From NCBI GenBank assembly GCA_017531385.1, contig JAFXLD010000082.1:1-43618 (forward strand): a DNA stretch of 43,618 nucleotides, read 5' to 3'. The first letter of the stretch is position 1; each line of letters begins with the position of its first letter. A model generated the notes under the pieces. It did no database searches, was not told the DNA's origin, and saw only the letters and a list, made by a program, of their open reading frames with translations. Source of the DNA: Clostridia bacterium (GTDB lineage Bacteria > Bacillota > Clostridia > Oscillospirales > Acutalibacteraceae). Made by a program: the position numbers and the translations under genes. Positions 22,474 through 41,010 of this stretch are shown one piece after another.

Positions 22474-23445
22474 ATGAATGTTGCAACAATCGGAACATCA
22501 TGGATTACCGAAAGTTTTATTACTTCTTCAGAATATGCTGACGATATAAACATCTGTGCTGTATATTCAAGAAGTGAAGAAAAAGCAAAAGCCTTTGCAG
22601 AAAAGAACAATGTCAGGAAATATTACTTCTCTCTTGAAGAAATGCTAAGGGATGAAAACATTGATGCAGTCTATATTGCAAGTCCTAATTCAAAACACTT
22701 TGAACAGGCAAAAATGTGTCTTCTTCACGGAAAACACGTTATCTGCGAAAAACCTGCTGTTGTCACAAGTGATGAATTGAAGGAAATCTATGAAATCGCT
22801 GACAGCAGAAATCTCATTTTCCTTGAAGCAATGAAGTCAATGCACTCTGACGGACTTGATATAATAAAAAATTCCCTTGCTGACCTTGGTGAAATCAGAA
22901 CGGCAAGTATTGATTTTTCTCAGCATTCATCAAAGTACGGAGCATATAAGAGGGGAGAGAATCCCAATATTTTCAATCCTGAGTTCTGTACGGGTGCTCT
23001 TATGGATCTGGGTGTTTACTGTGTTTACTTTGCACTTGAATTATTCGGTGGGCCCGTGAACGTGATCTCACATTCTGATTTTCTGGAATCTGGTGCAGAC
23101 TGTACTGGCACACTAATATTTGTTTATGATGACAAAACTGTCACGATTACATATTCAAAAACGGCTAACGGATTTTTGGGAAGCAGAATCCTCGGTGAAA
23201 ACGGAGCAATTACCGTAAAATCCGTTTCAAAGCTTACAGGGATAGACAGATATTACAATGACGGCAGAACAGAAGAACTTTATCCCGTTATTGATGAAAA
23301 CATAGTCATGTCAAAGGAAATTGAAGCTTTCAGAGATTTCATAAACGGCAGAAACAAAGAATATTACGATTATTGTAAGCAGATGGCGTTTGCGTCATGC
23401 AGAATAATCGAAAATATAAGAAAAGAAAATAACTTCGGATTTTAA
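22474..23445 (+). CDS. Gfo/Idh/MocA family oxidoreductase
   Basis: A 323-residue NAD(P)-dependent sugar or inositol oxidoreductase. The Rossmann N-terminus is VATIGTSWITESFI, with Thr/Ser replacing part of the usual GxGxxG pattern. The lysine motif is GKHVICEKPAVV, and FLEAMKSMHSDGL and GALMDLGVYCVYFALELFG mark the substrate domain. Smaller than the copy at 11130 and clearly a separate lineage. GGAGTGG precedes the ATG. It ends 12 bases before a large GH106-like glycosidase, whose ribosome binding site overlaps its stop, so the two form an operon. It may process the sugar that glycosidase releases. Confidence 0.87.
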   Translation: MNVATIGTSWITESFITSSEYADDINICAVYSRSEEKAKAFAEKNNVRKYYFSLEEMLRDENIDAVYIASPNSKHFEQAKMCLLHGKHVICEKPAVVTSDELKEIYEIADSRNLIFLEAMKSMHSDGLDIIKNSLADLGEIRTASIDFSQHSSKYGAYKRGENPNIFNPEFCTGALMDLGVYCVYFALELFGGPVNVISHSDFLESGADCTGTLIFVYDDKTVTITYSKTANGFLGSRILGENGAITVKSVSKLTGIDRYYNDGRTEELYPVIDENIVMSKEIEAFRDFINGRNKEYYDYCKQMAFASCRIIENIRKENNFGF

Positions 23446-23457
23446 GGAGGTTAATTT

Positions 23458-26400
23458 ATGATTTATAAGAAAAACAGTGAAAAAACTCTGTCAACGGAGC
23501 TTTTCAGGAATCCCACAAGTGAGTACAGAGGAACGCCTTTCTGGGCATGGAACTGTAAACTTGACAAAGAAGAGCTGAAATGGCAGATAGAAGTATTCAA
23601 GGAAATGGGTCTTGGTGGTTTTCACATGCATGTAAGAACAGGTATGGCAACACCATATCTTTCCGATGAATATATGGATATTGTCAAAGCTTGTGTTGAA
23701 AAGGCTAAAGATGAAAAAATGCTTGCCTGGCTTTATGATGAGGATAGATGGCCATCAGGTGCTGCAGGTGGTCTTGTGACAAAAGATAAGAAATACCGTG
23801 CAAGATATCTGCTTTTCACTCCCAGGTCATATGAAGAATGTGCAGATAATCTTCAGGTCAATGATTCAAGAAGTGAAGGCGGAAGAAACGGCGAAGGTGA
23901 TTTTCTTGCGGCTTATGATGTCATACTTGATAATGACGGTTATCTTGAATCTTATAAAAGAATCGGCAAGGATGAAGAGCCACAGGGCTCAAAATGGTAT
24001 GCCTATATGGAAATCTGTTCATCATCGAGCTGGTATAACAATCAGGCTTATCTTGATACTCTCAGTAAGGATGCCGTAAAACGCTTTGTTGAGGTTACTC
24101 ACGAAAGATACAAAGAAACAGTAGGTGAGGACTTTGGCGATGCAGTACCTGCAATCTTTACCGATGAACCTCAGTTCTGCAGAAAGCAGACACTCAACAA
24201 TTCAACCGACAAGCACGACATCAATCTGCCATGGACAGATGATATTCCCGAAACATACAAAAAGGCTTACGGTGATGATATTCTCGATTTTCTTCCCGAA
24301 CTTTTCTGGGACAAGAAAAATGAAGTAAGTCTTGCACGTTACCGTTATCATGACCATATTTCAGAGCGTTTTTCAGAGGCTTTTGCTGATGTCTGCGGTT
24401 CATGGTGCCGTGAAAACGGACTGTATCTCACAGGTCATATGATGGAAGAACCCTCACTTCACAGCCAGACTGCAGCTCTGGGCGAGGCAATGCGTTCTTA
24501 CCGTGGCTTTGACCTTCCCGGTATCGATATGCTCTGTAACAGCTTTGAGTTCACAACTGCAAAACAGGCTCAGTCAGCCTGTCATCAGTTCGGCAGAGAA
24601 GGTGTTCTTTCCGAGCTTTACGGTGTAACAGGCTGGGATTTCGATTTCCGAGGTCATAAACTTCAGGGCGACTGGCAGGCTGCACTCGGTGTAACTGTCA
24701 GAGTTCCGCATCTTTCGTGGGTTTCAATGGCAGGTGAAGCAAAGCGTGACTATCCTGCATCAATTCATTATCAGTCACCCTGGTGGAAAGAATATTCTTA
24801 TGTTGAAGACCATTTTGCAAGAGTTTACTCTGCAATGACACGTGGTAAGCCCGTTGTAAAAGTCGGTGTTATTCATCCCGTTGAGTCATTCTGGCTTCAT
24901 TGGGGCCCCAACGATAAATCAGAGCTTGCCCGTGATGCTCTTGATGAAAAATTCTTCAATGTCACAGACTGGCTTCTCAAAGGCAGTATAGACTTCAACT
25001 TCATCAGCGAATCACTTTTCCCGACTCTCTGCGAAAAGGGCACAAATCCCATTAAAGTCGGTGAAATGGAATACGATGCTATTGTTGTGCCTGATTGCGA
25101 AACACTTCGTTCTTCAACTCTTGAAAGACTTGAAGGGTTTGCGAAAAACGGCGGTAAACTCATATTTATGGGTTCTGCTCCCGTTTATGAAAATGCAGTG
25201 CCGAGTGAAAGAGGCAAAGCACTTTATGAAAACAGCACAGTGATTTCATTTGACCGTGAAAAACTTCTTTCAGCACTTGAAGAAAACAGAACTGTCACAA
25301 TCCGTTATAAAAACGGCTCACTCGCAGACAATCTTATTTATCAGATGCGTAAAGATAACGATTGCGAGTGGCTTTTTGTGGCTCATGCACGCAATCCTTA
25401 CAACAAGGATGTTTTCTCAAGCAGGGATGTAAGAATTTATCTTGACGGTGACAGAAAGGTTACTGTTTATGACACAATTTCGGGTGATATTTATCCTGCT
25501 GATGTTGATTATGCAAACGGCAAGACTGTTATAAAACAGGAAATGTATGACTATGATTCATTGCTTGTAAAAATCGAAGACGGCAGAAATGATGAGAACT
25601 GTGCTAAGAATGAAATCAAAGCCTGTGAAGATGTGAAAGTTCCTGTTTTTGTTGACTATACACTCGATGAAGAAAATGTTCTTCTTCTTGATATGTGCCG
25701 TTTTAAGACAGACGACGGTGATTGGCACGAAAAAGAAGAAATTCTTCTTGCTGACAATATCGCCAGAGCAGAAGCGGGTCTTGACGAAAGAGGCGGCTCT
25801 GTTCCTCAGCCCTGGGTTATTCCCGAAGAAGAAATAAAGCATTCAATCACACTCGAATTCACTATTGATTCCGAGATTGATGTTAAAAATCCCGTACTTG
25901 CACTTGAAGATGCTGAACTTGCAGAAATTACAATGAACGGTCAGAAAGTTGCTAATGAAATTCTCGGCTGGTATGTTGATAAATCAATAAAGAGAGTTGC
26001 TCTTCCCGACCTTAAGACAGGTGCAAACATCCTCACCGTAAAACTTCCTCTCGGCAACCGAACAAACACAGAGTGGTGCTATCTTCTTGGTGATTTCGGT
26101 GTCAGGGTTATCGGTTCAACATCTACAATCTGCAAAAAGGCAGAAAAGCTTGCTTTCGGTGATATTGTTCCGCAGGGACTTCCTTTCTACGGCGGAAACA
26201 TCACATACCACCTTGAAGCAGAAACAGACAAGGGCGAACTTCTCATAACAGTACCCCGTTACAGAGGCGGTCTTGTTAAGGTTATCGTTGACGGCGAAGA
26301 CAAGGGGAACATTGTTTATTCACCCAATGAACTTCTTGTTACAGGACTTTCAGACGGTAAACACAAGGTTGACATAAAACTCTTCACACATCGCTTCAAT

Positions 26401-26541
26401 TCATTCGGCGCTGTTCATCTTACAGATGTCAGCCATTCATGGCATGGACCCGGAGCATGGCGTGAAGAAGATGAGAAATGGAGTTATGAATATAACCTTA
26501 AAACAGTCGGCATTCTCACAACTCCGTGGATTAAGAAGTAA
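23458..26541 (+). CDS. Large glycosidase, GH106 (alpha-L-rhamnosidase)-like
   Basis: The 1027-residue, signal-less protein starts with PTSEYRGTPFWAWNCKLDKE, then MGLGGFHMHVRTGM and WLYDEDRWPSGAAGG. This resembles the TIM-barrel start of GH106-type alpha-L-rhamnosidases and relatives (the family's WAWN and MGxGG patterns). FTDEPQFC near residue 238 and TGHMMEEPSLHSQ near residue 330 hold candidate catalytic carboxylates. A Rossmann-like trimerisation domain follows (DAIVVPDCETLRSSTL; NGGKLIFMGS), and residues about 790-1025 contain beta-sandwich domains like the sugar-binding domain of GH2 (ITMNGQKV; GANILTVKLPLGNRT). The length fits GH106. The exact family is uncertain. Probably intracellular, in an operon with an oxidoreductase; GGAGG precedes the ATG. 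Confidence 0.7.
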   Translation: MIYKKNSEKTLSTELFRNPTSEYRGTPFWAWNCKLDKEELKWQIEVFKEMGLGGFHMHVRTGMATPYLSDEYMDIVKACVEKAKDEKMLAWLYDEDRWPSGAAGGLVTKDKKYRARYLLFTPRSYEECADNLQVNDSRSEGGRNGEGDFLAAYDVILDNDGYLESYKRIGKDEEPQGSKWYAYMEICSSSSWYNNQAYLDTLSKDAVKRFVEVTHERYKETVGEDFGDAVPAIFTDEPQFCRKQTLNNSTDKHDINLPWTDDIPETYKKAYGDDILDFLPELFWDKKNEVSLARYRYHDHISERFSEAFADVCGSWCRENGLYLTGHMMEEPSLHSQTAALGEAMRSYRGFDLPGIDMLCNSFEFTTAKQAQSACHQFGREGVLSELYGVTGWDFDFRGHKLQGDWQAALGVTVRVPHLSWVSMAGEAKRDYPASIHYQSPWWKEYSYVEDHFARVYSAMTRGKPVVKVGVIHPVESFWLHWGPNDKSELARDALDEKFFNVTDWLLKGSIDFNFISESLFPTLCEKGTNPIKVGEMEYDAIVVPDCETLRSSTLERLEGFAKNGGKLIFMGSAPVYENAVPSERGKALYENSTVISFDREKLLSALEENRTVTIRYKNGSLADNLIYQMRKDNDCEWLFVAHARNPYNKDVFSSRDVRIYLDGDRKVTVYDTISGDIYPADVDYANGKTVIKQEMYDYDSLLVKIEDGRNDENCAKNEIKACEDVKVPVFVDYTLDEENVLLLDMCRFKTDDGDWHEKEEILLADNIARAEAGLDERGGSVPQPWVIPEEEIKHSITLEFTIDSEIDVKNPVLALEDAELAEITMNGQKVANEILGWYVDKSIKRVALPDLKTGANILTVKLPLGNRTNTEWCYLLGDFGVRVIGSTSTICKKAEKLAFGDIVPQGLPFYGGNITYHLEAETDKGELLITVPRYRGGLVKVIVDGEDKGNIVYSPNELLVTGLSDGKHKVDIKLFTHRFNSFGAVHLTDVSHSWHGPGAWREEDEKWSYEYNLKTVGILTTPWIKK

Positions 26542-26545
26542 AAAA

Positions 26546-26586
26546 AATAAGAGCTGATGACTTCAAAAATCATCAGCTCATTTTTA
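26546..26586. terminator. Bidirectional terminator
   Basis: Perfect 10-bp stem GAGCTGATGA / TCATCAGCTC (26551-26579) with an A-run on the left and T-run on the right. It separates the convergent GH106-like gene and the sugar operon ending in manA. Confidence 0.85.
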
Positions 26587-26589
26587 TGT

Positions 26590-27606
26590 TTATATTATAG
26601 GAAAATCGCACTGGATAATCTGCATATCACCCTCGGCAAAGAGTCTGCCGTCGATAACAGCAGGTGCGAAGAAGTAATCGCCTTTTTTAACATCTCTCAC
26701 GAAGTCATCACAGATAATTTTACCATTTCCGTCTGTCACAACATAAACACTCGGACAGGGAAGTGAAACGGATTCACCTTTTACATTGTATCTGTTTACT
26801 GCAAAACAGGGTGTTTTTTCGTGAGTGATAAGTCTTTCGATGTTGCCCTCTTTCACAGGCTCGCATTTTGCGGCTTTCAGAGTTTTTTCAAGAGAATCAA
26901 GCTCCATGTCGAAACAGTCAAAAGCAATATCAGGGTCAAGACCTAAATATTTTTCGTTATCGCTTAAAACATAGTCACCGCACTTATTTTCGGGCTGAAT
27001 GGTGAAGTCTGTCGGCTCCTGAACTTCAAGAAGAAGACAGTTTTTGCCTATGGCGTGAATTGCCTTGCCGGGGATAAGAAAAACATCACCCACATTAACG
27101 GGGATTTTGTTCAGCATTGAAACGAGAACACTTTCATCCTTGTCAAAAGCGGCTCTGAATTCCTCTTTTGTGTATCTCTTGTTGAAACCGAAATAAATGC
27201 AGGCATCTTCACCCGTTCCGAGGATAATCCAGCTTTCTGTTTTGCCGTATTCGCTGTTGAAGTGCTTTCTTGAAAATTCTTTATCGGGATGACACTGAAC
27301 GGGAAGTCTTATTGATGAATCAAGAATTTTAGTGAGGATTCCGAGTTCAGTTCTGCCTTTACCGAGCATTTCTTCGGTGTAATTTTTAAGAAGTTCGTCG
27401 AATTTTTCACCGTCTTCCGTAATGGAAATACCTTCATCGGGAATGTTACTGCCCTCATTGAGTGCTTTTACATAAGAACAGACCCATTCTTCGGGATAAA
27501 ATCCCTCTGTACTGTCGTCACCGAAAAATGATGCAAACTGACTGCCGCCTGTGTATATTCTTCTTACTCTGTTTTTCTTGAAAAATAATGGTTTGTTAAG
27601 GTTCAT
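26590..27606 (-). CDS. manA: Mannose-6-phosphate isomerase, class I
   Basis: A 338-residue cupin-type, zinc-dependent isomerase interconverting mannose 6-phosphate and fructose 6-phosphate. Zinc-site motifs are LPVQCHPDKEFS (about residues 136-147), a downstream Glu-containing segment KTESWIILG, and IPGKAIHAIGKNCLLLE with its His. The length is typical of the short Firmicute type. GAGGTGAC precedes the ATG at 27606, only 9 bases from the end of the kinase gene, so it is the last gene of the glycyl-radical-enzyme operon. It could return a product of that pathway to glycolysis, or simply process mannose; a related ketose or aldose phosphate substrate is possible. Confidence 0.87.
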   Translation of the reverse strand: MNLNKPLFFKKNRVRRIYTGGSQFASFFGDDSTEGFYPEEWVCSYVKALNEGSNIPDEGISITEDGEKFDELLKNYTEEMLGKGRTELGILTKILDSSIRLPVQCHPDKEFSRKHFNSEYGKTESWIILGTGEDACIYFGFNKRYTKEEFRAAFDKDESVLVSMLNKIPVNVGDVFLIPGKAIHAIGKNCLLLEVQEPTDFTIQPENKCGDYVLSDNEKYLGLDPDIAFDCFDMELDSLEKTLKAAKCEPVKEGNIERLITHEKTPCFAVNRYNVKGESVSLPCPSVYVVTDGNGKIICDDFVRDVKKGDYFFAPAVIDGRLFAEGDMQIIQCDFPII

Positions 27607-27615
27607 TGTGTCACC

Positions 27616-28947
27616 TCATTGATAGTGTATCATCTTTTTTGCCGCGTCGAAGGTGTCTTTATAAATTCCGGATGCAACACTTGCAAAAATTGCGGCGCCG
27701 AAAGATGCTTCTTCCGTATGTGCAGGCACGTGAAGCTTCATGCCGAAAAGATTTTCGAGATAGTGTCTTAAAACACTGCTTTTTCTGACTGCATTACCCG
27801 AAGATACAAGCATATTACCTTTGTTATTGAAGCTGTTATAAAGAGTGTAAAGCTCATTTGCCATACCGTATAAAAATCCTCTTGTAAGCTCAGCAGGATT
27901 GAAATTGCTTTCTGTGATACCTGAAATGTTCCCCTTTATATCGGGATTTTTTCTTGTTCCGCAGAAACGTGTATCAACGGTGAGTGAATGTTCATCGGGA
28001 TTGATTTCTGCAATTTTATCCATATTTTTATAGATATCATCTTTGTTTCCGCCGAAAATTTCCGCACATTCAGTGAAGAATTTATGAAGCAGAGCAAAAC
28101 TTCTGCCACCGCAAAGTGGAGCACCCACAAGAATGAATTTTTTATTGTTCAGAGGTCTTGCTTCACCGTCTGAAAGTGCTTTCGGTGAGTCTGTAATAAC
28201 CGAAACCTGACTGCCTGTGCCGATGTTTACGAGAATGCTGTTTTCGTCTGAAACAGAGCCTAAAACGGATGCCTGGTTATCACCGATTGCAACAGAAACG
28301 GGTACGCCGTTTTCGTCTTTACCGACAATAGTACAATCACTGCACACTTCAGGAAGAAAACTTCTGTCTATGGCGATTTTTCTGAGTGCATCATCGTCAA
28401 AATCAGCTTTTGCAAGGTCAAAACAGCCCAGACTTGCAGCATCACTCGAATGCATAAGGGGAGTTTTTCTGCCTGTCAGCTTCATTACAAGATAATCGTG
28501 AATTGTGCAGAGCGTAACGGCATTTTCGGGAACATTGTTTTCCCGGATATTCACAAAATGAGTAACAAGACCGAAGCCTGATGCCATAGTGTGACCTGTT
28601 ATTTTTGTCAGATATGAAGCAAATGTTTCGCCATTAAAAGGCTTGTTACCGCTTTCATCCTGCCATGTGTAAAGAGGGCTTACAGCTTCACCGTCTTTGT
28701 CAAGATAAAGTATGCCGTGCATCTGTCCAGTTACACCGATTGCAGTCAGAGGTGAGTGCTTTTCAGCAAGTTCATCTTTGATTTTCAGCACCGTGTTAAT
28801 TATAACTTCGGGCTTCTGAAGTTTTGTGCCGTCAATAACAGAATCGTTTTTAACTGTTCTGCTGTCGAGGATTTTTCCCGTTTCTGCATCAGCCACAACA
28901 GCACTGATGGTTGTTGTGCCGATGTCAAGTCCTAATATCTTTAACAT
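27616..28947 (-). CDS. FGGY-family carbohydrate kinase, sedoheptulokinase-like
   Basis: The 443-residue kinase has the phosphate-1 motif GLDIGTTTISAVV at the N-terminus, GVTGQMHGILYLD, LYTWQDESG, GFGLVTHF, IHDYLVMKLTG and the adenosine-binding GNMLVSSGNAVRKSS. Within the FGGY family the GQMHG, TWQD and SGFG patterns are most like sedoheptulokinase (SHPK), which phosphorylates sedoheptulose at O-7, but relatives act on other ketoses. The start overlaps the end of the glycyl radical enzyme gene by 7 bases, so the two proteins are made together. AGGTGG precedes the ATG. I judge kinase function certain, substrate tentative. Confidence 0.82.
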   Translation of the reverse strand: MLKILGLDIGTTTISAVVADAETGKILDSRTVKNDSVIDGTKLQKPEVIINTVLKIKDELAEKHSPLTAIGVTGQMHGILYLDKDGEAVSPLYTWQDESGNKPFNGETFASYLTKITGHTMASGFGLVTHFVNIRENNVPENAVTLCTIHDYLVMKLTGRKTPLMHSSDAASLGCFDLAKADFDDDALRKIAIDRSFLPEVCSDCTIVGKDENGVPVSVAIGDNQASVLGSVSDENSILVNIGTGSQVSVITDSPKALSDGEARPLNNKKFILVGAPLCGGRSFALLHKFFTECAEIFGGNKDDIYKNMDKIAEINPDEHSLTVDTRFCGTRKNPDIKGNISGITESNFNPAELTRGFLYGMANELYTLYNSFNNKGNMLVSSGNAVRKSSVLRHYLENLFGMKLHVPAHTEEASFGAAIFASVASGIYKDTFDAAKKMIHYQ

Positions 28948-31304
28948 TCTATTCCACCTGTTGAGTCCGGGTCAAGTCTTGTTATGATGTCCTGCTGAAT
29001 AGCAGGTGAAAGATCAAGGAAATTAACGAATGTTCCGTGAATTCTCATGATGTAAACACCGCTCGGAGCATACTTCTTTGGATTGTCGAGAACTTTACGA
29101 AGCATTTCAGGCGTTGTGATGTTGAGATACATATAGAACGGAGCAATGCCCTGCTGTAAGGGATTGAAAAACAGGGGAGCGACAATTTTTGTTCTGAATT
29201 CAAGTCCCTTTGCTTCGTATGTTTCGCCCTTGAAGTATTTGGGGTCAACACCTAAGTGTGATGCACAGCCGCCGCACATTTTGTCGTAGGGAAGTTTCAT
29301 CTGTGAAAGTGTACGGAAACCGAGTCCCTGATTTGCATCGCCGTGAAGAGGGTCAATGCCGTAGTTGAGCATTTCTCTTGACTTTCTGCCGTCGGGAAGT
29401 GCACCGACCCAGTAACCGTAAAGAAGGTGTGTTGAGGGTGTGCTGAAATCAGGACGGAAAGCATTGCCCAGATAGTTTTTCTTTGAAGCAACGATATCAG
29501 CAATTTTTGAAGTGACTTCAACTGCCTCTTTGTCTGCGATGTCATTATTGTTGCCGAATTTGGGGCAGGAGAGAAGATAATCGCGAAGTTCTTCGTAGCC
29601 TTCAAAGTTATTCTTTATTGCATCAATAAGCTTGTCTGCATCTTCGGGACGGTCTTTAAGAAGACAGTCAATTGCAACAAAGCTGTCTGCAACAACAGAA
29701 GTCCCGTGGATAAGACAACCGCTTCCGTTGTAGGGTGTGCCTTGGTTAACAATATCTCTTGCATCATAGCCTGATTCAATACCGCCCATAACAGCAGAGA
29801 GGAAAGGCACGGGAAGAAGTGAAAGCGCTTTTGATGCACCGTTTGCCGCATCAGTCATAAGAGTTGCATAAGTTTCTGCATTTGCATAGAACTTTTCTCT
29901 GATATTCTGAAGCTTTTCGATAGCTGATGAGTCATCGGTCTTGCCGATTTTCTTGCCTGTAATTTCAGAGTAACCGCCTGTGAGAGTAAGTTCGAGAATC
30001 TTTCCGAGATTGAACCAGCTGTTTGTTGTGTTGCCTGAATCCTTGCCCATGATAAGAGGTTCCTGACAACCTGCGATTGAGTAATCGGCAAGATGCTCTG
30101 TCTTTACACCGTGAGTTGAAAGCACTTCAAACATTGCATCGTCGTTGAAAAGTGACGGAGTAAGACAGCCGGGTGTGAAGAAGAATTTACCCATGGCTTC
30201 ATAAACACTGTCTGGAGTATTCTTGTGAAGTTTAACTGAGAGAATTGGCTGAGGCATATTCATGTCATAATAAGCATCGAAAAGGGCAAATGATGTTTCG
30301 TTTGTCAGGTCATTTCCGTTTTCGTCCTTACCGCCGATGATAAGATTCTGTGATATTGCCCAGCTTCTGTCTGCAACATTATAGAAAACGAGAAGATGTT
30401 TAAGAAGTGCTGCTGTGTCTTCTCTTGAAAGGTTTTCCATTTTTCTGTAAGGCTCAAAAATTCTGTCTGCATTGCCAACTGAGAATGCAAAGGGGTTGGG
30501 AGCCTGTTCAAGGCACATAATCTGCCACAGGAGTATAAAACTCTGGATAGCTTCAAAGAGTGTTTCTGCTCCGTTTGCAGGGACTTTTTCGAGAGCTTCT
30601 GCAATGTTCAGCAGTCTGCATTTTTCGTCTGCATCATCTGTTTTTTCAGCATTTTCGAGAGCAAGATTTCTGTACCTTTCAGAAAGAATAAGAACTGCTT
30701 CAAGGGCATATCTCATACCCTTGCGATGTGAATTCTGCTTGTCATTGCCTTCTTTTTTGTCAAGTTCTCTGATAAGGTGCTTTACGCCATATTTTATTGC
30801 AGGACGCATATCGGGAATAACATGTCCCGTTACCTGCTCAATGAAGAATGCAACTTCGTCTGTATATTCGCTGTATTTGTCATAAACCTTTGAAAGCTCC
30901 TTGACAAATGGCGTTTCTTTATCGTATGCACGCATTTTTTCGATGCGTTCTTTTGTGAATTCATCGTCAACATCAATATCGTCATAGACTGCTGTGGGGT
31001 CACAGTAGCCGGAGAATGTTTCAACCCTGAATGCAGGATTGATGAGCGCATAGCTTCTTGCAAAAGCATCTCTCTGAGTGCCTGCAAAAACTGCGAACTT
31101 GCTGATTGAAATAGGCAGTCTTTCTGCAATGATTTTTAGCTGTTGACCGGCTTTTTCTACAGGAGGAAGGTCTTTGAACTGCTCGTCAGTTTCACGTCTG
31201 TATTCTTTGATTCTGAACCAGCCGTCAAGTTTTTTAAGTGAGCGTTCTTCCTTGAAAAGCTCCTTTGCAAGATAAGTGAGATGTTCGTGATTGCCTATGT
31301 TCAT
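28941..31304 (-). CDS. Glycyl radical enzyme of the non-PFL (GCxE) type, unknown substrate
   Basis: A 787-residue glycyl radical enzyme. The thiyl-radical Cys413 is in DYSIAGCQEPLIMG with Glu415 two residues on, the Cys-x-Glu pattern of GRE dehydratases and lyases; pyruvate formate-lyase has adjacent Cys-Cys instead. The C-terminal radical site is Gly757 in MRIHGTFVNFLDLSP, where Thr follows the Gly in place of the common Tyr or Phe. Other family hallmarks: GCLTPSLFNDD (379-389), GTPYNGSGC (522-530) and GALPDGRKSREMLNYGIDP (634-652). AAGGAGAGG precedes the ATG. The activase gene ends 12 bases upstream and the kinase gene overlaps its 3' end. GREs work only without oxygen. Variation around both radical sites suggests a substrate other than glycerol, choline, hydroxyproline or isethionate, but that needs comparison with known families. 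Confidence 0.87.
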   Translation of the reverse strand: MNIGNHEHLTYLAKELFKEERSLKKLDGWFRIKEYRRETDEQFKDLPPVEKAGQQLKIIAERLPISISKFAVFAGTQRDAFARSYALINPAFRVETFSGYCDPTAVYDDIDVDDEFTKERIEKMRAYDKETPFVKELSKVYDKYSEYTDEVAFFIEQVTGHVIPDMRPAIKYGVKHLIRELDKKEGNDKQNSHRKGMRYALEAVLILSERYRNLALENAEKTDDADEKCRLLNIAEALEKVPANGAETLFEAIQSFILLWQIMCLEQAPNPFAFSVGNADRIFEPYRKMENLSREDTAALLKHLLVFYNVADRSWAISQNLIIGGKDENGNDLTNETSFALFDAYYDMNMPQPILSVKLHKNTPDSVYEAMGKFFFTPGCLTPSLFNDDAMFEVLSTHGVKTEHLADYSIAGCQEPLIMGKDSGNTTNSWFNLGKILELTLTGGYSEITGKKIGKTDDSSAIEKLQNIREKFYANAETYATLMTDAANGASKALSLLPVPFLSAVMGGIESGYDARDIVNQGTPYNGSGCLIHGTSVVADSFVAIDCLLKDRPEDADKLIDAIKNNFEGYEELRDYLLSCPKFGNNNDIADKEAVEVTSKIADIVASKKNYLGNAFRPDFSTPSTHLLYGYWVGALPDGRKSREMLNYGIDPLHGDANQGLGFRTLSQMKLPYDKMCGGCASHLGVDPKYFKGETYEAKGLEFRTKIVAPLFFNPLQQGIAPFYMYLNITTPEMLRKVLDNPKKYAPSGVYIMRIHGTFVNFLDLSPAIQQDIITRLDPDSTGGIEC

Positions 31305-31316
31305 GCTATCCTCTCC

Positions 31317-32024
31317 TTATGTTTTAATAACTTTAATTGAGTTTAATCTGAATTTATCAACAAATTTTTTTATTGTTTCTTTATTTACATAACCGTCATT
31401 AACGGTATATTCTTTGCCGAGTTTCAGCCATTTTTCCCTGCCGTATTCATGGTAGGGAAGTATTTCAACATCGAAATTGCCATTGAGACTGTTAAAAAAT
31501 TCAGTGAATCCCTCAAGTGATTCGTCATCATCATTGAATGAGTGAATAAGCGGAATTCTTATGTGGATATGTTTAATTTTTTCAATTTGTCTCAGATTAT
31601 TTTCAATTGTTGCGAGATTTCCGCCTGTGACAAGCTTCAATCTGTCCTGTATCGGTGATTTATAATCAACAATAACAGTATCACATTTTTCTGCAACATA
31701 TAAAAAATCAGGCGTATCTGCATTTGACTCAATGCAGAAAGAAATATCATTAAGAGAGTTTATTATTTCGCATATTGCCTCTGATTGAAGAGTGCATTCA
31801 CCGCCTGTGAAAGTGACACCTCCGCCGTCAAAAAACATCGGTGCCGATGACTTTATTTCACGTATAATTTCATCGGTTTCATACTCTTTGCCGTTTTTAT
31901 TCATTCCCTCGGGATTTGAACACCACGGACAGACCATATTACAGCCTGAAAGATGATAAACAAGTCTGTTCCCCGGACCGTCCTGAGAATAGTTGAATCC
32001 TTTTTCAAAAATATTTATCTTCAT
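31317..32024 (-). CDS. Glycyl radical enzyme activase (radical SAM)
   Basis: A 235-residue radical-SAM enzyme that installs the glycyl radical on the neighbouring enzyme. The [4Fe-4S] cluster ligands are Cys28, Cys32 and Cys35 in SGCNMVCPWCSNPEG; GVTFTGGECTLQ is the SAM-binding GGE region. The start FEKGFNYSQDGPGNRLV is typical of activases. Its length equals the minimal pyruvate formate-lyase activase type: the ferredoxin-like insert with two extra clusters, found in most activases of GRE dehydratases, is absent. The gene starts inside the end of the EamA transporter gene (4-base overlap) and stops 12 bases before the GRE, its evident partner. Confidence 0.92.
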   Translation of the reverse strand: MKINIFEKGFNYSQDGPGNRLVYHLSGCNMVCPWCSNPEGMNKNGKEYETDEIIREIKSSAPMFFDGGGVTFTGGECTLQSEAICEIINSLNDISFCIESNADTPDFLYVAEKCDTVIVDYKSPIQDRLKLVTGGNLATIENNLRQIEKIKHIHIRIPLIHSFNDDDESLEGFTEFFNSLNGNFDVEILPYHEYGREKWLKLGKEYTVNDGYVNKETIKKFVDKFRLNSIKVIKT

Positions 32025-32977
32025 TTCTTTGCTTTTTTACCGATTTTTAAATCGGGGAGCTGAGCCATAATAATTGCAACAAACATAACTGCAAAGCCGA
32101 TAAATTCTCTCTGAGTGGGGAGATTACCACGGATCACCCAGTCTGCAAGACCTGAGAAAACCGATTCAAGGCTCATGAGAAGGGGAGCGAGAATATGGTT
32201 GCAATGCTTCTGACCGATAATCTGAAGTGTGAAAGCAGCACCGCCTGAAAGAACACCTGAGTAGAGAAGAGGAATTGCATTTGCCTTGATGATCTCCATA
32301 TCAGGCTTTTCAAAAATAAGCATAAAAATTGTTGCAATAACTGCTGTTATACCGAACTGTATACATGAAAGTTTTACGCCGTCAACTTTATCTGAAACTG
32401 AATCAACTGTGATTATCTGAGCACCGTAACCGACTGCACAGGCAATAAGCATTATGTCTGCTGTTGAAATTGTAAAACCTGCACCGGGAGTGATTGAAAT
32501 AAAGTAAAGACCGACAGTACCGACGGCAACACTCAGCCATGCCATAAGTCCGACTTTCTTTTTGAAGAAAATGCCGAAAACAGGTACGAAAATTATGTAA
32601 AGAGCTGTAAGGAATGCGGCTCTGCCTGTTGAAACATCCTTACCCTGCATATCAATGCCGAACTGCTGGAAAATACATCCTGCCGCAAGTGTGATACCGC
32701 AGATAAGACCTGCACGGGTAAGAATTTTATTTTCATCAAACCAGTGCTTTAAGTTTTTGTATTTTTTCTTATTGAGCTTTGCCTTGCCTGTGTTATTCTG
32801 AACGAGAACAACCGCAAGAATTGAAAGGAATGCAAGAGTGCATCTGATACTCTGGAATGTAAAAGAGCCCACATCTCCGCCTTCGCTCTGTGCTACGAAT
32901 GAAATACCCCATATGAGTGCCGCAAGCACGATAAGCAGGGGACTGATGATTTTTTGTGCCTTTAATTTTCTGTCCAT
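32021..32977 (-). CDS. EamA/DMT-family transporter
   Basis: A 318-residue, ten-span transporter with two EamA repeats: LLIVLAALIWGISFVAQ at the N-terminus and the second-half region DIMLIACAVGYGAQII. The mid-protein GKDVSTGRAAFLTALYIIFVP is typical of the YdcZ/RhaT-like branch of DMT. It overlaps the activase gene by 4 bases and follows alr by 4 bases, so it belongs to the glycyl-radical operon and could carry a substrate or product of that pathway. CTGAGGT precedes the ATG. It is a different subgroup from the EamA protein at 5869-6795. Confidence 0.87.
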   Translation of the reverse strand: MDRKLKAQKIISPLLIVLAALIWGISFVAQSEGGDVGSFTFQSIRCTLAFLSILAVVLVQNNTGKAKLNKKKYKNLKHWFDENKILTRAGLICGITLAAGCIFQQFGIDMQGKDVSTGRAAFLTALYIIFVPVFGIFFKKKVGLMAWLSVAVGTVGLYFISITPGAGFTISTADIMLIACAVGYGAQIITVDSVSDKVDGVKLSCIQFGITAVIATIFMLIFEKPDMEIIKANAIPLLYSGVLSGGAAFTLQIIGQKHCNHILAPLLMSLESVFSGLADWVIRGNLPTQREFIGFAVMFVAIIMAQLPDLKIGKKAKK

Positions 32978-32981
32978 TTTT

Positions 32982-34136
32982 TTACCTCAGATAATTAACA
33001 GTTTTTATGATTTTTCCGTCTTTTTTGTAGACTCTCGGTATTCTTCTTGAAACACCGCAGATAACTTCATAATTGAAGCTCATTGATTTGTCGCCGATTT
33101 CCTCCGCAGAAACGGTGAGATTGCCGTCTGAGCCGAAAAGTATGACTTCATCGGTCACTTCACAATCAATTTCAGTAACATCAATCATAAACATATCCAT
33201 GCACACTCTGCCGACGATAGGCGCATATTTGCCATTTACGATAACTCTGCCACAGCCCGATAAAGCTCTCGGATAGCCGTCTGCATAGCCTGCGGAAACA
33301 GTTGCAATGCGTCGTTTTTCTTTTGTTTTATATGTGTGACCGTAGCTTATGCCAACATTCTCGTCTACATCTTTGATGCTGATGATATGACTCTTGAAAG
33401 TCAGTGCAGGAATAAGATTGATTTTTGATTGGTCAATTTCATCTGACGGATATAATCCGTATAGAGAAATACCCATTCTGACCATATCAAAGTGTTCATT
33501 GAACTCCGAAATACCTGCCGAGTTACACATATGCTGAATTTTGAATGTTACACCTGAATCAGCACATTTATTTACAAAATCCTTGTAAAGTGCTGTCTGA
33601 TTATGAGAAACAGCTTTGTCTGTCATATCAGCACAGGCATAATGTGAGAAAATACCTTCAAGCTCAATATTTCTGAGATTGTTTATTTCACATACTGCTT
33701 TTACTGCTTCATCATCGGGAAAGAAACCGATTCGTGTCATTCCTGTGTCAACTGCAATATGCACTTTTGCGGTTTTGCCGAGCTTTTTTGCCGCTTCATT
33801 AACTTTTTTTGCTCTCTCTTTATTGTACACAGTCAGCCTGACATCATTTGAAATGAGTTCTTCATAATCATCGGAATGAGTGTACGAGAGAACAAGTATA
33901 TTATTTTCAATTCCTGAACGACGAAGTTCCATTGCTTCGTCTGCCGATGCGACCGCAAAGAAATCAACCTTGTCTGAAAGTAATTCTGCAATCGTCACAG
34001 CACCGTGACCGTAGGCATCTGCCTTGACAACGGCACATTTCAGCGTGTCTTCTGATATGCAGTTTTTCAGTTCATTGAGATTTTGTTCAATTGCATCAAC
34101 ATCAATTTCAGCAAATGTTCTCAGATATCTGCTCAA
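32982..34136 (-). CDS. alr: Alanine racemase
   Basis: A 384-residue PLP-dependent enzyme converting L- to D-alanine for peptidoglycan. The PLP lysine is in AVVKADAYGHGA, the catalytic Tyr side is in GISYGHTYKTKEKR, and DTGMTRIGF, HMCNSAG and VGRVCMDMFMIDVT are standard motifs. The frame is open to 34202, but the extra N-terminus (RYLKYLKEIFYF) is foreign to the family. A TTG at 34136 follows AAGGTGAT at 34141-34148 and gives the usual start LSRYLRTFAEID, so I prefer this TTG. It heads the EamA-activase-GRE-kinase-manA operon. D-alanine is not an obvious partner for sugar metabolism, so it may be the ancestral first gene of the transcript. Confidence 0.93.
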   Translation of the reverse strand: MSRYLRTFAEIDVDAIEQNLNELKNCISEDTLKCAVVKADAYGHGAVTIAELLSDKVDFFAVASADEAMELRRSGIENNILVLSYTHSDDYEELISNDVRLTVYNKERAKKVNEAAKKLGKTAKVHIAVDTGMTRIGFFPDDEAVKAVCEINNLRNIELEGIFSHYACADMTDKAVSHNQTALYKDFVNKCADSGVTFKIQHMCNSAGISEFNEHFDMVRMGISLYGLYPSDEIDQSKINLIPALTFKSHIISIKDVDENVGISYGHTYKTKEKRRIATVSAGYADGYPRALSGCGRVIVNGKYAPIVGRVCMDMFMIDVTEIDCEVTDEVILFGSDGNLTVSAEEIGDKSMSFNYEVICGVSRRIPRVYKKDGKIIKTVNYLR

Positions 34137-34163
34137 ATTTATCACCTTAATTATAAAATAAAA

Positions 34164-34200
34164 GATTTCCTTTAAATATTTTAAATATCTAAAAGAAATC
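34164..34200. promoter_or_regulatory. AT-rich dyad between the ABC importer and alr
   Basis: GATTTC and GAAATC close an 18-base imperfect inverted repeat around an AT-rich centre (ATATTTAAAATATTT on the minus strand). T-rich sequence follows on the minus side, so it could be an AT-rich terminator for the ABC operon. TTGCAA-17-TATGAT lies just before it on the minus strand, so it could instead lie in the alr leader or act as an operator. Confidence 0.4.
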
Positions 34201-34232
34201 ATAATATATTTTTATTATTTTTGCAATAGAAA

Positions 34233-37347: not shown

Positions 37348-37363
37348 TGTATCACATGATACA
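37348..37363. promoter_or_regulatory. Perfect 16-bp palindrome, candidate Crp/Fnr operator
   Basis: TGTATCA-CA-TGATACA. Its last A overlaps the -10 box of the regulator's promoter, so a bound dimer would cover the transcription start. The symmetry and spacing fit Crp/Fnr half-sites of the TGT-type. Confidence 0.65.
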
Positions 37364-37391
37364 TTATACTGTATTTTTTTCAAATTGTCAA
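37363..37391 (-). promoter_or_regulatory. Consensus promoter of the Crp/Fnr-ABC operon
   Basis: On the minus strand TTGACA (37386-37391), a 17-bp spacer, then TATAAT (37363-37368): a perfect sigma-A consensus at both boxes. Confidence 0.85.
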
Positions 37392-37440: not shown

Positions 37441-40400
37441 TTATAATTCAAACATATTGTGAAGATTTATAAAGAATGTGATAAGCTTTTTAAAGAAATC
37501 AATGAGCTTTTTAAAGAAACTGTTTTCATTTGCATTGTTCTTTTCATCTGCAGAAACATCTTCACAGTCACCTGCATATTCACCCTCGGAAGTATCTTTC
37601 TGAATTGCAAATGAGTCAACATTTACAGCATTGTCGCTGTCTACGGTGTAAGCATCGAAGTACAGTACACCACCGTCAATTTCAATTGCAGAGAACATCG
37701 AAGCATCAACATCGATTATTTTCTCAGCTCTGGGGAACAGCTCATCTGTAAGAGATGCATCTTTCTGGTTATAAACCTTGACACCGGATGTGCCGCAGAT
37801 AACATATGATGTACCTGTGGGCTGAACATCGGTTACATAATTTTTACCGTTGTGTGAAAGCAGAACTCTTTCCGTGTCGGTTACAAGATTGCTGTCAAGA
37901 GCATAAGTTCTCATGTAAACATGGTCATGGCCCTGGAAAACAAGGTCAATGTCAAGCTGCGGCATAAGAACGGAAAGTTGTTCTCTTATTGCAATTACAT
38001 CATCATCGTCATAGTGTGAACCGTTTGAATATACTGCCTTATGAATTGCGACGATTTTCCACTGTGCGTCACTTGCAGCAGCGTCAGCCTTGAGCCATTC
38101 AATCTGCGCATCTGAAAGACCTTCGTTTTCATTCAGACTGTTGGAGTTCAGAACCATGAAATGTGCATTGTTGTAATCGAATGAGTAGTAAACACCTGTT
38201 GAAGTATCCTGTTCGGGGTAATCTGAAATTGTAAATTTGCTGAGTGTTGCGTATTCTTCGAAATTCTCGTGATTACCTGTTACAGGCATGAGATATGTAT
38301 TCATTATCTGTTCGCTTGCAGTGTTCAGAAGCCACTGATACTGATTTACATTTTTGGGATTATCAACCATATCACCCGTATGAAGAACAAGCTTTGTTTC
38401 AGGATAAAGCTCAAATGCCTTATCCATTACATTCTGCCAGCCACGTTCAAACTGAGAGAGTGTCTGTGACTGAGAATCTGTAACATTGATAAATGTGAAG
38501 TTATCGCCGTTATCCTGTGTTGTGATTGAGCCTGTTTCACTCCACCAGCCTCTTTGTGCATCACCGACCCTGTAGTAATATGTGCTGTCTGCTTCAAGTC
38601 CTGTGATAGTAGCTGTGTGTCTGTTAAGCTCAAAATCATAATAGAAGAAACCTATGATTCCAAGGTCAATACCGGGATAGCTGACAGTCACTTTTTCACT
38701 TGCTACACTGAAAGAGAAATCAACATCCTCTGCATCGGTGGGAACACCTGTGAATGCAGTAAATTCATCAGCTTTGTAAATTTCAATATCGGAGCCTGCA
38801 ACAGATTCTTTTGTGAACCAATTGATGTTTGCACTTGTGCTGTCAGCACCGAGAGTAACATTTATCATTGCAGGAAGTCTGTAATTTTCAGCGGAAACTT
38901 CCGGCTCAACCTTGTGTGAAGAATATGTAACATTGTTATCACCGAGATGCTTGGGATTTGTGTCTGTCACAAAGTCTGAAATACAGTAAGCAAACTGATG
39001 ACCGATAGATTCAAGCTGACTTTGAGTGATATATTCATCCATAAGGGAATTGATAATGTCATCAATGCTTGAATACGGAAGAATACCCAGTGAGAATACG
39101 GTGTTGATAAGATTCAGGTAAGAAATGTCACCTTTGAGAAGTGTGCTTACAAGATAGTTTATATTTAATCCGAGTAAAGATGCTGTCGGGAAATCAGGGT
39201 CGATAAGCTTTTCGAGTCTGATTTCAAGCTTTGAAAGGATTGAATCGTAGAGCAGATCGTTAAGAATAATATCTATGAGTGTGTTTACGATTTTTTCTGC
39301 AAGATCACCGTTTTCGAATTCATTGATTACATCAAGCACAAAAGCATCGTCAGAGCAATCCTCGTTACCTGTGTACCAGTAAACCATTGCACTCAGTATG
39401 AAATCACCGAGTGTACCGTTTTTTGAAGCATCACCGAAATGGTATGTGTCAATGAACTTTGTACAGGGAACGGAAGATACTTCAAAATCAATAACCTTGC
39501 TGACAATTGATTCAAGAAGGTTTATAAGATTTTCAGGATCATTTATATAAAGCTCTTCAATCTGTCCCATAAGGTCGTTGATAAACCACATGATATTGTC
39601 AACAGATAAAATGCTTGTATCGCCTAATTTTATACCGTCACCGATATATGGAGAAAGAAAACCGTCAAGAAGCTGTGCAAGGTCGAGATTCATTGTTTTA
39701 AGAAACTCATTAATTCCGCCTGCAGCATTTATATCATCCACATATGGCAGCAGATAATTCTTGATGATTCCCATAAAGAAAGCTTTAGCATCTGCATAGC
39801 CGTCTTCAGTGTATTTACCGCCGAAGTTAATTGCAAATGACGCTTCACTGAAAGGCTTTTCATAAGTTTTTCCGTTTACGGTTACTTCATTTGCAAAGTC
39901 AACATCATATGTGCTGTAAGTCATTTCACTTTCACCGTCACCGTATGTGGTGATAGTGCATTCTCTTATGAAATTGGGGAAACCTGTGAGTGCACCGACT
40001 TCGCAGTCATATATAACATTGCCGTTGTCGGAAGTCACACTTGAAATATCATTTGTGTGCTGATGACCTGTAAACGCAAAATGAATGCCTGCATCTGCAA
40101 AGGATTCTGCAACCCATGTGTAGTTATCAACACAGAATGCATATGTAACGGAAGGCTCTAATTTCATGTGAGGAGCAATGCTGTGATGCATCATCATGAT
40201 GGGAGTTTTTCCATCTTTCCGGGCATCTTCAGACATTTCTTTTACCCATTCCATTGTGTTTTCGGAAACCATACCGTCTGTCTGTTGTTTTGCGGGAACA
40301 TCAGCAGTGTATTTGTTTGAATCAACAACAATAAGTCTGTAATTATCATCAAGGTCAGCAACATATGAAAGTCCGCCCTGATGAGAACCGTCAGGAGCTG

Positions 40401-40950
40401 TGTATTCACTAATTGCGTGGTCATAACCGAGATTCTTGTAAATTTCTCTGAATTCAGCGGGAGTTGTGGCTTTAGCAAATTCCATTGAACCGTTTTCAAA
40501 AGTACAGGAATCGATAACATTTATATCATGGTTGCCGTTTATAACGAAAACTTCAATACCTGTGTCCTTTTCAAACTGTTCAAGAGTTGCTGCGAGCTGA
40601 ACATGACCTTCGTATTCGCTGTCTTTTGTAAGATCACCGGGAATAAGAAGATATTTATAGCCCGTTTCTTCAGCTTTAAGAGCAATTGAATCAAGTGCTG
40701 CATGTACAAGAGCATCAGATTCCTCATATTCCTTTGCTTCGGTTGATGAAAACTCCTGCCATGCATCGCAGTTATTGCCTGTGTATGATGGCGGATAATA
40801 GTGAATGTCCGAAATTGCGGCAAAGGGGAGTGTTCCAACAATTTCTTCCGGATTCCCCGTCACAACAGCACCGCTGATAGCGGGACTGAACAGTGTCAAC
40901 AGCATTATAACTGAAAGAATTACCGATAGAATTTTTTTTGTAAGTTTCAT
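37441..40950 (-). CDS. Secreted tandem metallophosphoesterase
   Basis: After a signal peptide (LTKKILSVILSVIMLLTLF), the 1169-residue protein has two calcineurin-like phosphoesterase domains. The first (about residues 45-380) shows AAISDIHYYPP, LIPGDLTKDSEYEG, VINGNHDIN, MMMHHSIAPH and FAFTGHQHTND. A long alpha-helical linker follows (about 380-690). Then comes a fibronectin III-like purple-acid-phosphatase N-domain (about 700-830) and the second phosphoesterase domain (about 835-1090) with LVLHTGDMVDNPKN, PVTGNHENF, IAIHKAVYS and LVFQGHDHVYMRTY. The protein ends in an amphipathic Phe-rich helix (FFKKLIDFFKKLITFF). The frame is open to 40983, but AAAGGATGAT is placed for the ATG at 40950. It may release phosphate from phosphorylated polymers or nucleotides outside the cell. 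Promoter and terminator indicate a single-gene unit. Confidence 0.87.
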   Translation of the reverse strand: MKLTKKILSVILSVIMLLTLFSPAISGAVVTGNPEEIVGTLPFAAISDIHYYPPSYTGNNCDAWQEFSSTEAKEYEESDALVHAALDSIALKAEETGYKYLLIPGDLTKDSEYEGHVQLAATLEQFEKDTGIEVFVINGNHDINVIDSCTFENGSMEFAKATTPAEFREIYKNLGYDHAISEYTAPDGSHQGGLSYVADLDDNYRLIVVDSNKYTADVPAKQQTDGMVSENTMEWVKEMSEDARKDGKTPIMMMHHSIAPHMKLEPSVTYAFCVDNYTWVAESFADAGIHFAFTGHQHTNDISSVTSDNGNVIYDCEVGALTGFPNFIRECTITTYGDGESEMTYSTYDVDFANEVTVNGKTYEKPFSEASFAINFGGKYTEDGYADAKAFFMGIIKNYLLPYVDDINAAGGINEFLKTMNLDLAQLLDGFLSPYIGDGIKLGDTSILSVDNIMWFINDLMGQIEELYINDPENLINLLESIVSKVIDFEVSSVPCTKFIDTYHFGDASKNGTLGDFILSAMVYWYTGNEDCSDDAFVLDVINEFENGDLAEKIVNTLIDIILNDLLYDSILSKLEIRLEKLIDPDFPTASLLGLNINYLVSTLLKGDISYLNLINTVFSLGILPYSSIDDIINSLMDEYITQSQLESIGHQFAYCISDFVTDTNPKHLGDNNVTYSSHKVEPEVSAENYRLPAMINVTLGADSTSANINWFTKESVAGSDIEIYKADEFTAFTGVPTDAEDVDFSFSVASEKVTVSYPGIDLGIIGFFYYDFELNRHTATITGLEADSTYYYRVGDAQRGWWSETGSITTQDNGDNFTFINVTDSQSQTLSQFERGWQNVMDKAFELYPETKLVLHTGDMVDNPKNVNQYQWLLNTASEQIMNTYLMPVTGNHENFEEYATLSKFTISDYPEQDTSTGVYYSFDYNNAHFMVLNSNSLNENEGLSDAQIEWLKADAAASDAQWKIVAIHKAVYSNGSHYDDDDVIAIREQLSVLMPQLDIDLVFQGHDHVYMRTYALDSNLVTDTERVLLSHNGKNYVTDVQPTGTSYVICGTSGVKVYNQKDASLTDELFPRAEKIIDVDASMFSAIEIDGGVLYFDAYTVDSDNAVNVDSFAIQKDTSEGEYAGDCEDVSADEKNNANENSFFKKLIDFFKKLITFFINLHNMFEL

Positions 40951-40981
40951 GTTATCATCCTTTCGGAAATTTGTTACAATC

Positions 40982-41010
40982 ATTATAAAACATTATAAAG
41001 AAAATGTAAA
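40982..41010 (-). promoter_or_regulatory. Promoter of the double metallophosphoesterase gene
   Basis: On the minus strand TTTACA (41005-41010), a 17-bp spacer, then TATAAT (40982-40987). A second TATAAT at 40992-40997 lies in the spacer. Confidence 0.65.

Follow-up and report, generated by a model that had tools for sequence, protein, structure and literature searches.

What does a glycyl radical enzyme (GRE) do when it is encoded next to a sugar kinase and a phosphomannose-isomerase-like protein, and do these genes belong together at all? We have addressed this question in a stretch of 43,618 nucleotides (nt; hereafter the window) from a Clostridia bacterium of the Acutalibacteraceae (contig JAFXLD010000082.1, assembly GCA_017531385.1), which is contig 46 of a 2.47 Mb draft genome that is 83% complete. 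The association of the genes goes beyond chance, since the core of the group recurs in most relatives and its members co-occur in genomes. We lean, if only slightly, towards an undescribed GRE reaction, in which the enzyme would act as a radical eliminase on a free, unphosphorylated hexose-derived compound and would hand a ketose product to an FGGY-type fructokinase, as the central part of a new anaerobic sugar pathway found across several families of gut Clostridia.

Between positions 34202 and 26590 of the window, six genes lie on the minus strand:

32982..34202, minus strand: alanine racemase, alr (Pfam Ala_racemase 234 and 155 bits; NCBIfam alr 360.7 bits, cut-off 168)
32021..32977, minus strand: EamA/DMT transporter, accessory (Pfam EamA 93 bits)
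31317..32024, minus strand: radical-SAM GRE-activating enzyme of 235 amino acids (aa) with a CxxxCxxC motif (Pfam Radical_SAM 54 bits)
28941..31304, minus strand: GRE of the eliminase (Cys-x-Glu) type, 787 aa (Pfam PFL-like 367 bits)
27616..28947, minus strand: FGGY carbohydrate kinase, XylB-like, 443 aa, with a GQMHG motif (Pfam FGGY_N 100 bits, FGGY_C 39 bits)
26590..27606, minus strand: ManA-like isomerase (type I phosphomannose-isomerase family), 338 aa (Pfam PMI_typeI_cat 21.8 bits, cut-off 22)

The tight packing on one strand noticed in the original prediction is confirmed. Counting from alr, the successive genes are joined by a gap of 4 nt, an overlap of 4 nt, a gap of 12 nt, an overlap of 7 nt and a gap of 9 nt. 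The start of alr is likely at 34136, where a TTG codon is preceded by an AAGGTG-like ribosome site.

Recurrence of the cassette

We compared 64 GRE contexts, namely the window and loci L032-L058, L072-L094 and L110-L122 (L055 and L119 are on the same contig), counting as partners the genes found on the same strand as the GRE and within 8.5 kb. The activase accompanies the GRE in 61 of them, the FGGY kinase in 58 and the ManA-like gene in 39, the order of the last two being swapped at some loci. The kinase gene is thus a regular neighbour of the GRE in related genomes, as the original prediction expected. In the three contexts without an activase the sequence ends within 30 bases upstream, and in three of the six without a kinase it ends within 250 bases downstream; at L050 and L093 (of G048) the kinase is on another contig of the same genome, and L047 has none although there is room on the contig. 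EamA and alr were found in seven and four contexts, respectively, the latter in the window and three close relatives and the former in these four plus three loci of the genus g180, for which reason both were placed outside the conserved unit and rejected as members of the pathway, to which alr is probably unrelated. The proposal of a six-gene operon as a pathway unit has to be trimmed to the activase, the GRE, the FGGY kinase and, often, the ManA-like gene.

The same picture was obtained at the level of whole genomes. The GRE is carried by 29 of 200 genomes of the family and by 14 of 391 genomes of the class, the class matches spanning eight families (f1, f13, f14, f22, f23, f25, f43 and f66). 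In the family sample the FGGY kinase (E<=1e-60) was found in 28 of the 29 genomes with the GRE against 3 of the 171 without it, and the ManA-like protein (E<=1e-75) in 18 and 2 of them, respectively. In the class sample all 14 genomes with the GRE have the kinase, which occurs in 14 further genomes with no GRE match, and the GRE is present in nine of the ten genomes with the ManA-like protein. The exception, G443, is 78% complete and belongs to g180, a genus with three GRE-carrying genomes; an EamA gene comes after its ManA-like gene, an arrangement also seen elsewhere in g180. The record titles of the named loci mention gut samples from water buffalo, yak, roe deer, water deer, cattle, goat and sheep; one named locus belongs to Candidatus Pullichristensenella avicola, and several titles give no host name.

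The glycyl radical enzyme and its activase

The protein has all the hallmarks of the GRE superfamily: the PFL-like domain (PFL, pyruvate formate-lyase), the thiyl Cys, the C-terminal glycyl loop, the GRE fold and an adjoining radical-SAM activase. The Cys-x-Glu type assigned to it earlier was borne out, with the eliminase pair at Cys413-x-Glu415 and Gly757 in the loop RIHGTF. GCQEP, with the Glu two residues past the catalytic Cys, is common to all 63 members of the GRE cluster. RIHGTF with the radical Gly is kept in 62 of them, and the remaining one (L121) is cut off before the loop, which sets aside the aminoacyl radical enzymes, described in a passage of PMC11528403 as having Ala, Ser or Thr in place of the radical Gly.

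Members of the GRE clade are 59-95% identical to the window GRE and the next loci found reach at most 28%, a gap that comes from searches of family and class genomes with E cut-offs loose enough to let a 40% match through and from a locus search that finds only loci with one exact peptide pattern. Furthermore, the GRE stays far below the cut-offs of all nine NCBIfam models that it matches. A pyruvate formate-lyase, an enzyme marked by a Cys-Cys pair, was rejected on the single Cys in AGCQE and on 67.8 bits against the 994 of pyr_form_ly_1. HypD, also an eliminase-type GRE, was discarded on 208 bits against the 1100 of NF043068 and a position outside the HypD clade in the tree, and PflD/YbiW on 184.9 bits against the 1109 of PRK09983 (PflD) and a separate clade supported at 100/100; no model for YbiW was among the NCBIfam matches.

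The tree was built with 22 of the 60 clade members and 22 other sequences, among them HypD, PflD, YbiW and glycerol dehydratase as characterised types and the window genome's own PFL-like protein; CutC, IslA, HpsG, the decarboxylases and BssA are not in it. A profile search found two PF02901 proteins in the window's genome, the cassette GRE and one PFL-like protein. In the tree the cassette GREs form their own clade (support 100/100, stem 2.46), outside the clades of known substrate, and its unity is sure; its junction with the other families is unsure because the PFL row is very long. Both the NCBIfam models and the tree support a position of the GRE outside the characterised groups compared and, judged by sequence, it represents a new family of GREs, encoded within a conserved sugar-kinase cassette.

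The glycerol/1,2-propanediol dehydratase that acts without B12 is the best phmmer match (1r8w) and occupies the top structural rows, sharing with the cassette GRE the Cys-x-Glu pair and one His. It differs in an identity of only 24% (structure) to 27% (sequence), and beside the cassette GRE no conserved alcohol-dehydrogenase or microcompartment genes were seen. It was rejected on the seven columns that we take to be the substrate pocket of 1r8w, in which H164 is kept and N156, H281, S282, Y339, D447 and Y640 are replaced. At these columns the GRE equals YbiW at three (H161, T427 and S621) and PflD at H161 only, and F153 is common with HypD.

The activase of the window is short and a ferredoxin insert is not visible in it. 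A count of at least six Cys within the 80 residues past CxxxCxxC, taken as the mark of a ferredoxin-like insert, was reached by five of 58 activases (L039, L043, L045, L073 and L089), and the other 53, including that of the window, are below this mark, a rough measure given that PflC scores only 4.

As a separate observation, genomes G242 and G252 match the HypD model 14 and 12 times, always below cut-off and often in open frames of ~660-780 aa, and represent a reservoir of unassigned GREs.

Sugar kinase and isomerase

The kinase had been called sedoheptulokinase-like, an identity that neither the models nor the gene context support. Its best NCBIfam model is XylB (TIGR01312), with 148 bits against a cut-off of 380, and xylulokinase was rejected on this score. 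With the FGGY kinases of the xylulokinase family it shares both FGGY domains and the GQMHG motif, and it departs from them in this score and in a context that points to fructose. This context was read from 17 loci with the FGGY gene in genomes where the GRE was not found (L157-L159 and L201-L214). A GH32 gene adjoins the kinase at four of them (L158, L159, L206 and L208), and at L208 (3363-6479, plus strand) GH32 and FGGY domains are found in a single open reading frame (ORF) of 1038 aa, preceded by a GH32 gene with a GDSL domain. DUF2961, whose members we take to act on fructofuranosides or arabinofuranosides, adjoins the kinase at three more, in three species of one genus (L210 by Pfam, L211 and L213 by resemblance). 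In a FastTree phylogeny the kinases of these loci form no separate branch, and that of L158 lies within a GRE-linked group. Because these relatives adjoin or are fused to GH32, or adjoin DUF2961, the cassette kinase is probably a fructokinase (ketohexose kinase). No bacterial FGGY fructokinase was apparent in the titles returned by a literature search on FGGY and fructokinase.

The name manA, given earlier to the last gene, is right as to the family; with 70.8 bits against the 116.2 of NCBIfam manA (TIGR00218) the protein is a divergent relative and not a canonical ManA. Q104, H106, E124 and H184, which presumably align with the metal ligands of ManA, are kept in all 37 ManA-like neighbours of the GRE. 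In the same 37, Gln204 replaces the Arg of the TYR segment of B. subtilis ManA, an Arg that we assume to be catalytic. In two genomes where the GRE was not found the ManA-like gene is paired with a PfkB kinase, and at L120 a gene of the lyxose/mannose-isomerase (D-lyxose-isomerase) family follows GRE and FGGY, together with a PfkB gene. Both associations point to a divergent isomerase that probably acts on a free, mannose-type sugar.

More distant ManA-like relatives (39% identical to that of the window) were found at L137 and L138 in an iolG-iolD-iolE-like cluster that includes a PHP-like gene and lacks a visible iolB, the names being taken from reading of the sequences; there they might take the place of IolB and isomerise a deoxy-aldose.

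Candidate reactions and surroundings of the cassette

The sequences show a gene set that is conserved and co-occurs in genomes, a distinct GRE with its catalytic residues, and a kinase with a fructan-gene context; from these we infer the substrate, the chemical steps and their order in a compact anaerobic catabolic cassette. GRE activases install the glycyl radical, and here the short radical-SAM activase would put it on Gly757. The GRE, through Cys413-x-Glu415, would then abstract a hydrogen from a hydroxyl-bearing carbon of the unphosphorylated hexose-derived substrate, and a neighbouring C-O (or other) leaving group would be expelled to give a ketohexose or deoxyketohexose, which the FGGY kinase would phosphorylate. 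The ManA-like protein would feed a mannose-type aldose to the same kinase, serving either as a second entry or in a follow-up step, and the sugar phosphate would enter central metabolism, in most genomes without a transaldolase/FSA-family aldolase. We give an even chance to this full sequence of a GRE eliminase on a free hexose-type compound, FGGY fructokinase and ManA-like protein as second entry. The pathway idea of the original prediction is partly supported, in that the layout fits a GRE, a kinase and delivery to central metabolism.

Ma et al. reportedly described YbiW and PflD as the GREs of E. coli anhydroglycolysis, opening the ring of 1,5-anhydroglucitol 6-phosphate (AG6P) or 1,5-anhydromannitol 6-phosphate (AM6P). 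An FSA aldolase step belongs to this E. coli route, which starts from the 6-phosphates. A passage of the review PMC12441222 gives 1-deoxyfructose 6-phosphate as the product of both enzymes, and the titles of PDB entries 8id0 and 8id7 agree with this chemistry. A variant free of the phosphotransferase system (PTS), in which the GRE opens free 1,5-anhydromannitol or 1,5-anhydroglucitol to 1-deoxyfructose, FGGY makes 1-deoxyfructose 6-phosphate and an FSA-type aldolase releases hydroxyacetone and glyceraldehyde 3-phosphate, is a rather unlikely explanation of the cassette. An eliminase-type GRE with its own activase in a sugar-like metabolism is common to both systems, as is an FSA-family aldolase gene near the GRE: in E. 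coli ybiW-ybiY adjoin fsaA, and at L048 and L117 a TIGR00875 FSA/TalC gene (317 and 297 bits, cut-off 246) stands between GRE and FGGY, a borderline enrichment (2 of 122 genes in the operon chains against none of the 421 other genes of the same loci, p 0.05). The three pocket columns shared with YbiW also speak for it, and the conversion of 1-deoxymannose to 1-deoxyfructose, being the deoxy analogue of that of mannose to fructose, would explain the mannose/fructose partner genes. Against it, TIGR00875 (E<=1e-60) was found in 3 of 29 genomes with the GRE and 11 of 171 without (p 0.43), any PF00923 protein (E<=1e-8) in only five of the 29, and PF00923 neither in the window's incomplete genome nor in G190. 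The cassette has an ATP-dependent FGGY kinase instead of the PTS, and its GRE lies outside the PflD and YbiW branches, is 22% (YbiW) and 26% (PflD) identical in sequence alignment and matches PflD at a single pocket column, in a comparison made at the glycerol-dehydratase pocket. With the aldolase family not found in 24 of 29 GRE genomes, a plain copy of the E. coli route was rejected as the general one and kept as a rival. The scarcity of these aldolases suggests an ordinary ketohexose product, another enzyme that splits 1-deoxyfructose 6-phosphate, or a different substrate. Tentatively, our best single guess of substrate is a 1,5-anhydrohexitol, for example 1,5-anhydromannitol (1-deoxymannose) opened to 1-deoxyfructose.

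Less probable still is that the hexose is the leaving group, the GRE cleaving a hexose conjugate (e.g. a glycoside of a polyol or hydroxy acid) into free mannose or fructose for the ManA-like protein and FGGY, plus a small carbonyl compound. This would account for an ordinary-hexose kinase and isomerase with no need of a special aldolase, and for GH38 genes in the GRE gene chain (L042, L086, L091, L115 and L118, by cluster only at L086 and L091) or between kinase and manA (L057) and a GH92 gene downstream at L046. The GH38 link is not significant (5/122 chain genes against 7/421 others, p 0.15, the one at L057 being counted as outside the chain since the ORF caller sometimes chose antisense ORFs), ordinary glycosidases do such cleavage without a radical, and no conserved gene for the second product was seen adjoining the GRE. 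We consider it improbable that the kinase acts first and the GRE on a sugar phosphate, as the E. coli GREs do on 6-phosphates according to the same passage of PMC12441222, for the occurrence of this kinase type with GH32 or DUF2961 where the GRE was not found indicates that its substrate is probably free fructose. The idea of an ordinary glycerol/1,2-propanediol or hydroxyproline dehydratase lying by chance near sugar genes would leave the link to kinase and isomerase unexplained, and the HypD score, the six replaced pocket positions and the separate clade with its stem of 2.46 make it very improbable.

Several observations count against the free-hexose eliminase that we favour, as does the GH38 test. 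GRE chemistry is known to lead to plain fructose only when a hydroxyl and the leaving group are both on C1, or when the hexose itself leaves, so fructose as product is chemically awkward. The predicted GRE structure has low confidence (pLDDT) at the active-site loops 413-415 and 755-758, and the pocket therefore cannot be read from the model. For 25 of the 64 GREs, some of them at contig ends, no ManA-like gene was found nearby, and 11 of the 29 GRE genomes lack a close homologue (E<=1e-75); other ManA-like proteins of genomes with the GRE (~40% identity) were rejected as clean gap-fillers since their genes occur in different contexts, among them the inositol-like cluster of L137 and L138. Ten of the 17 kinase loci from genomes where the GRE was not found, several on short contigs, have neither GH32 nor DUF2961 adjoining, and some of the genomes concerned are incomplete (G270 75%, G420 77%, G049 87% and G433 88%), so that the GRE could be missing from the assembly.

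Other neighbours are more scattered. An AraC-regulator-like family lies divergently upstream in 15 contexts (only the L158 relative was confirmed as AraC by Pfam) and a ROK-repressor-like family is near in 12. GH32 was found in L049 and L050, DUF2961 in L055/L119 and PfkB in L049 and L120; neither these three nor GH92 are significantly enriched in the gene chain (122 against 421 genes, p at least 0.22). At L115 (6334-9732, plus strand) the GH38 ORF adjoining the GRE-FGGY genes has a C-terminal aldo/keto reductase match, which could be a fusion or an assembly effect. In the window, a Crp/Fnr-like regulator (by reading of the sequence) and an ABC transporter (substrate-binding protein identified by Pfam) precede alr on the same strand, and two consensus matches are candidate borders of the unit:

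37363..37391, minus strand: sigma-70 promoter-like site TTGACA-17-TATAAT (12/12, consensus match only), possible start of a ~10.8 kb unit
26551..26579, minus strand: intrinsic-terminator-like hairpin directly after manA (13 pairs and a T run, consensus match only), probable 3' end of the operon

Promoter-like sites are not enriched in the region (27 found, 27.4 expected from shuffles). Just upstream of the putative promoter there is a protein of 1180 aa (37441-40983, minus strand) with two metallophosphoesterase stretches and a purple acid phosphatase N-domain, and at 41061-42662 (minus strand) a GH25 muramidase with SH3 and a C-terminal type I dockerin. Convergent to the cassette (22474-26541, plus strand) are a Gfo/Idh/MocA oxidoreductase and a distant GH106-like gene; among the loci compared, only the close relatives L032-L034 have both at high identity.

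A full-text literature search revealed, by titles and abstract openings, no paper linking a GRE to a sugar kinase and ManA, and a passage of PMC11574389 states that many abundant gut GREs are without known function. The compact and recurrent set of partners narrows the chemistry of this one to hexose-like substrates, and the cassette points to an undescribed anaerobic use of a sugar-like compound in gut Clostridia. If the reading is true, it would name a fructokinase subfamily within FGGY, and the radical sugar chemistry that takes place in animal guts would gain a new substrate and perhaps a new type of bond.

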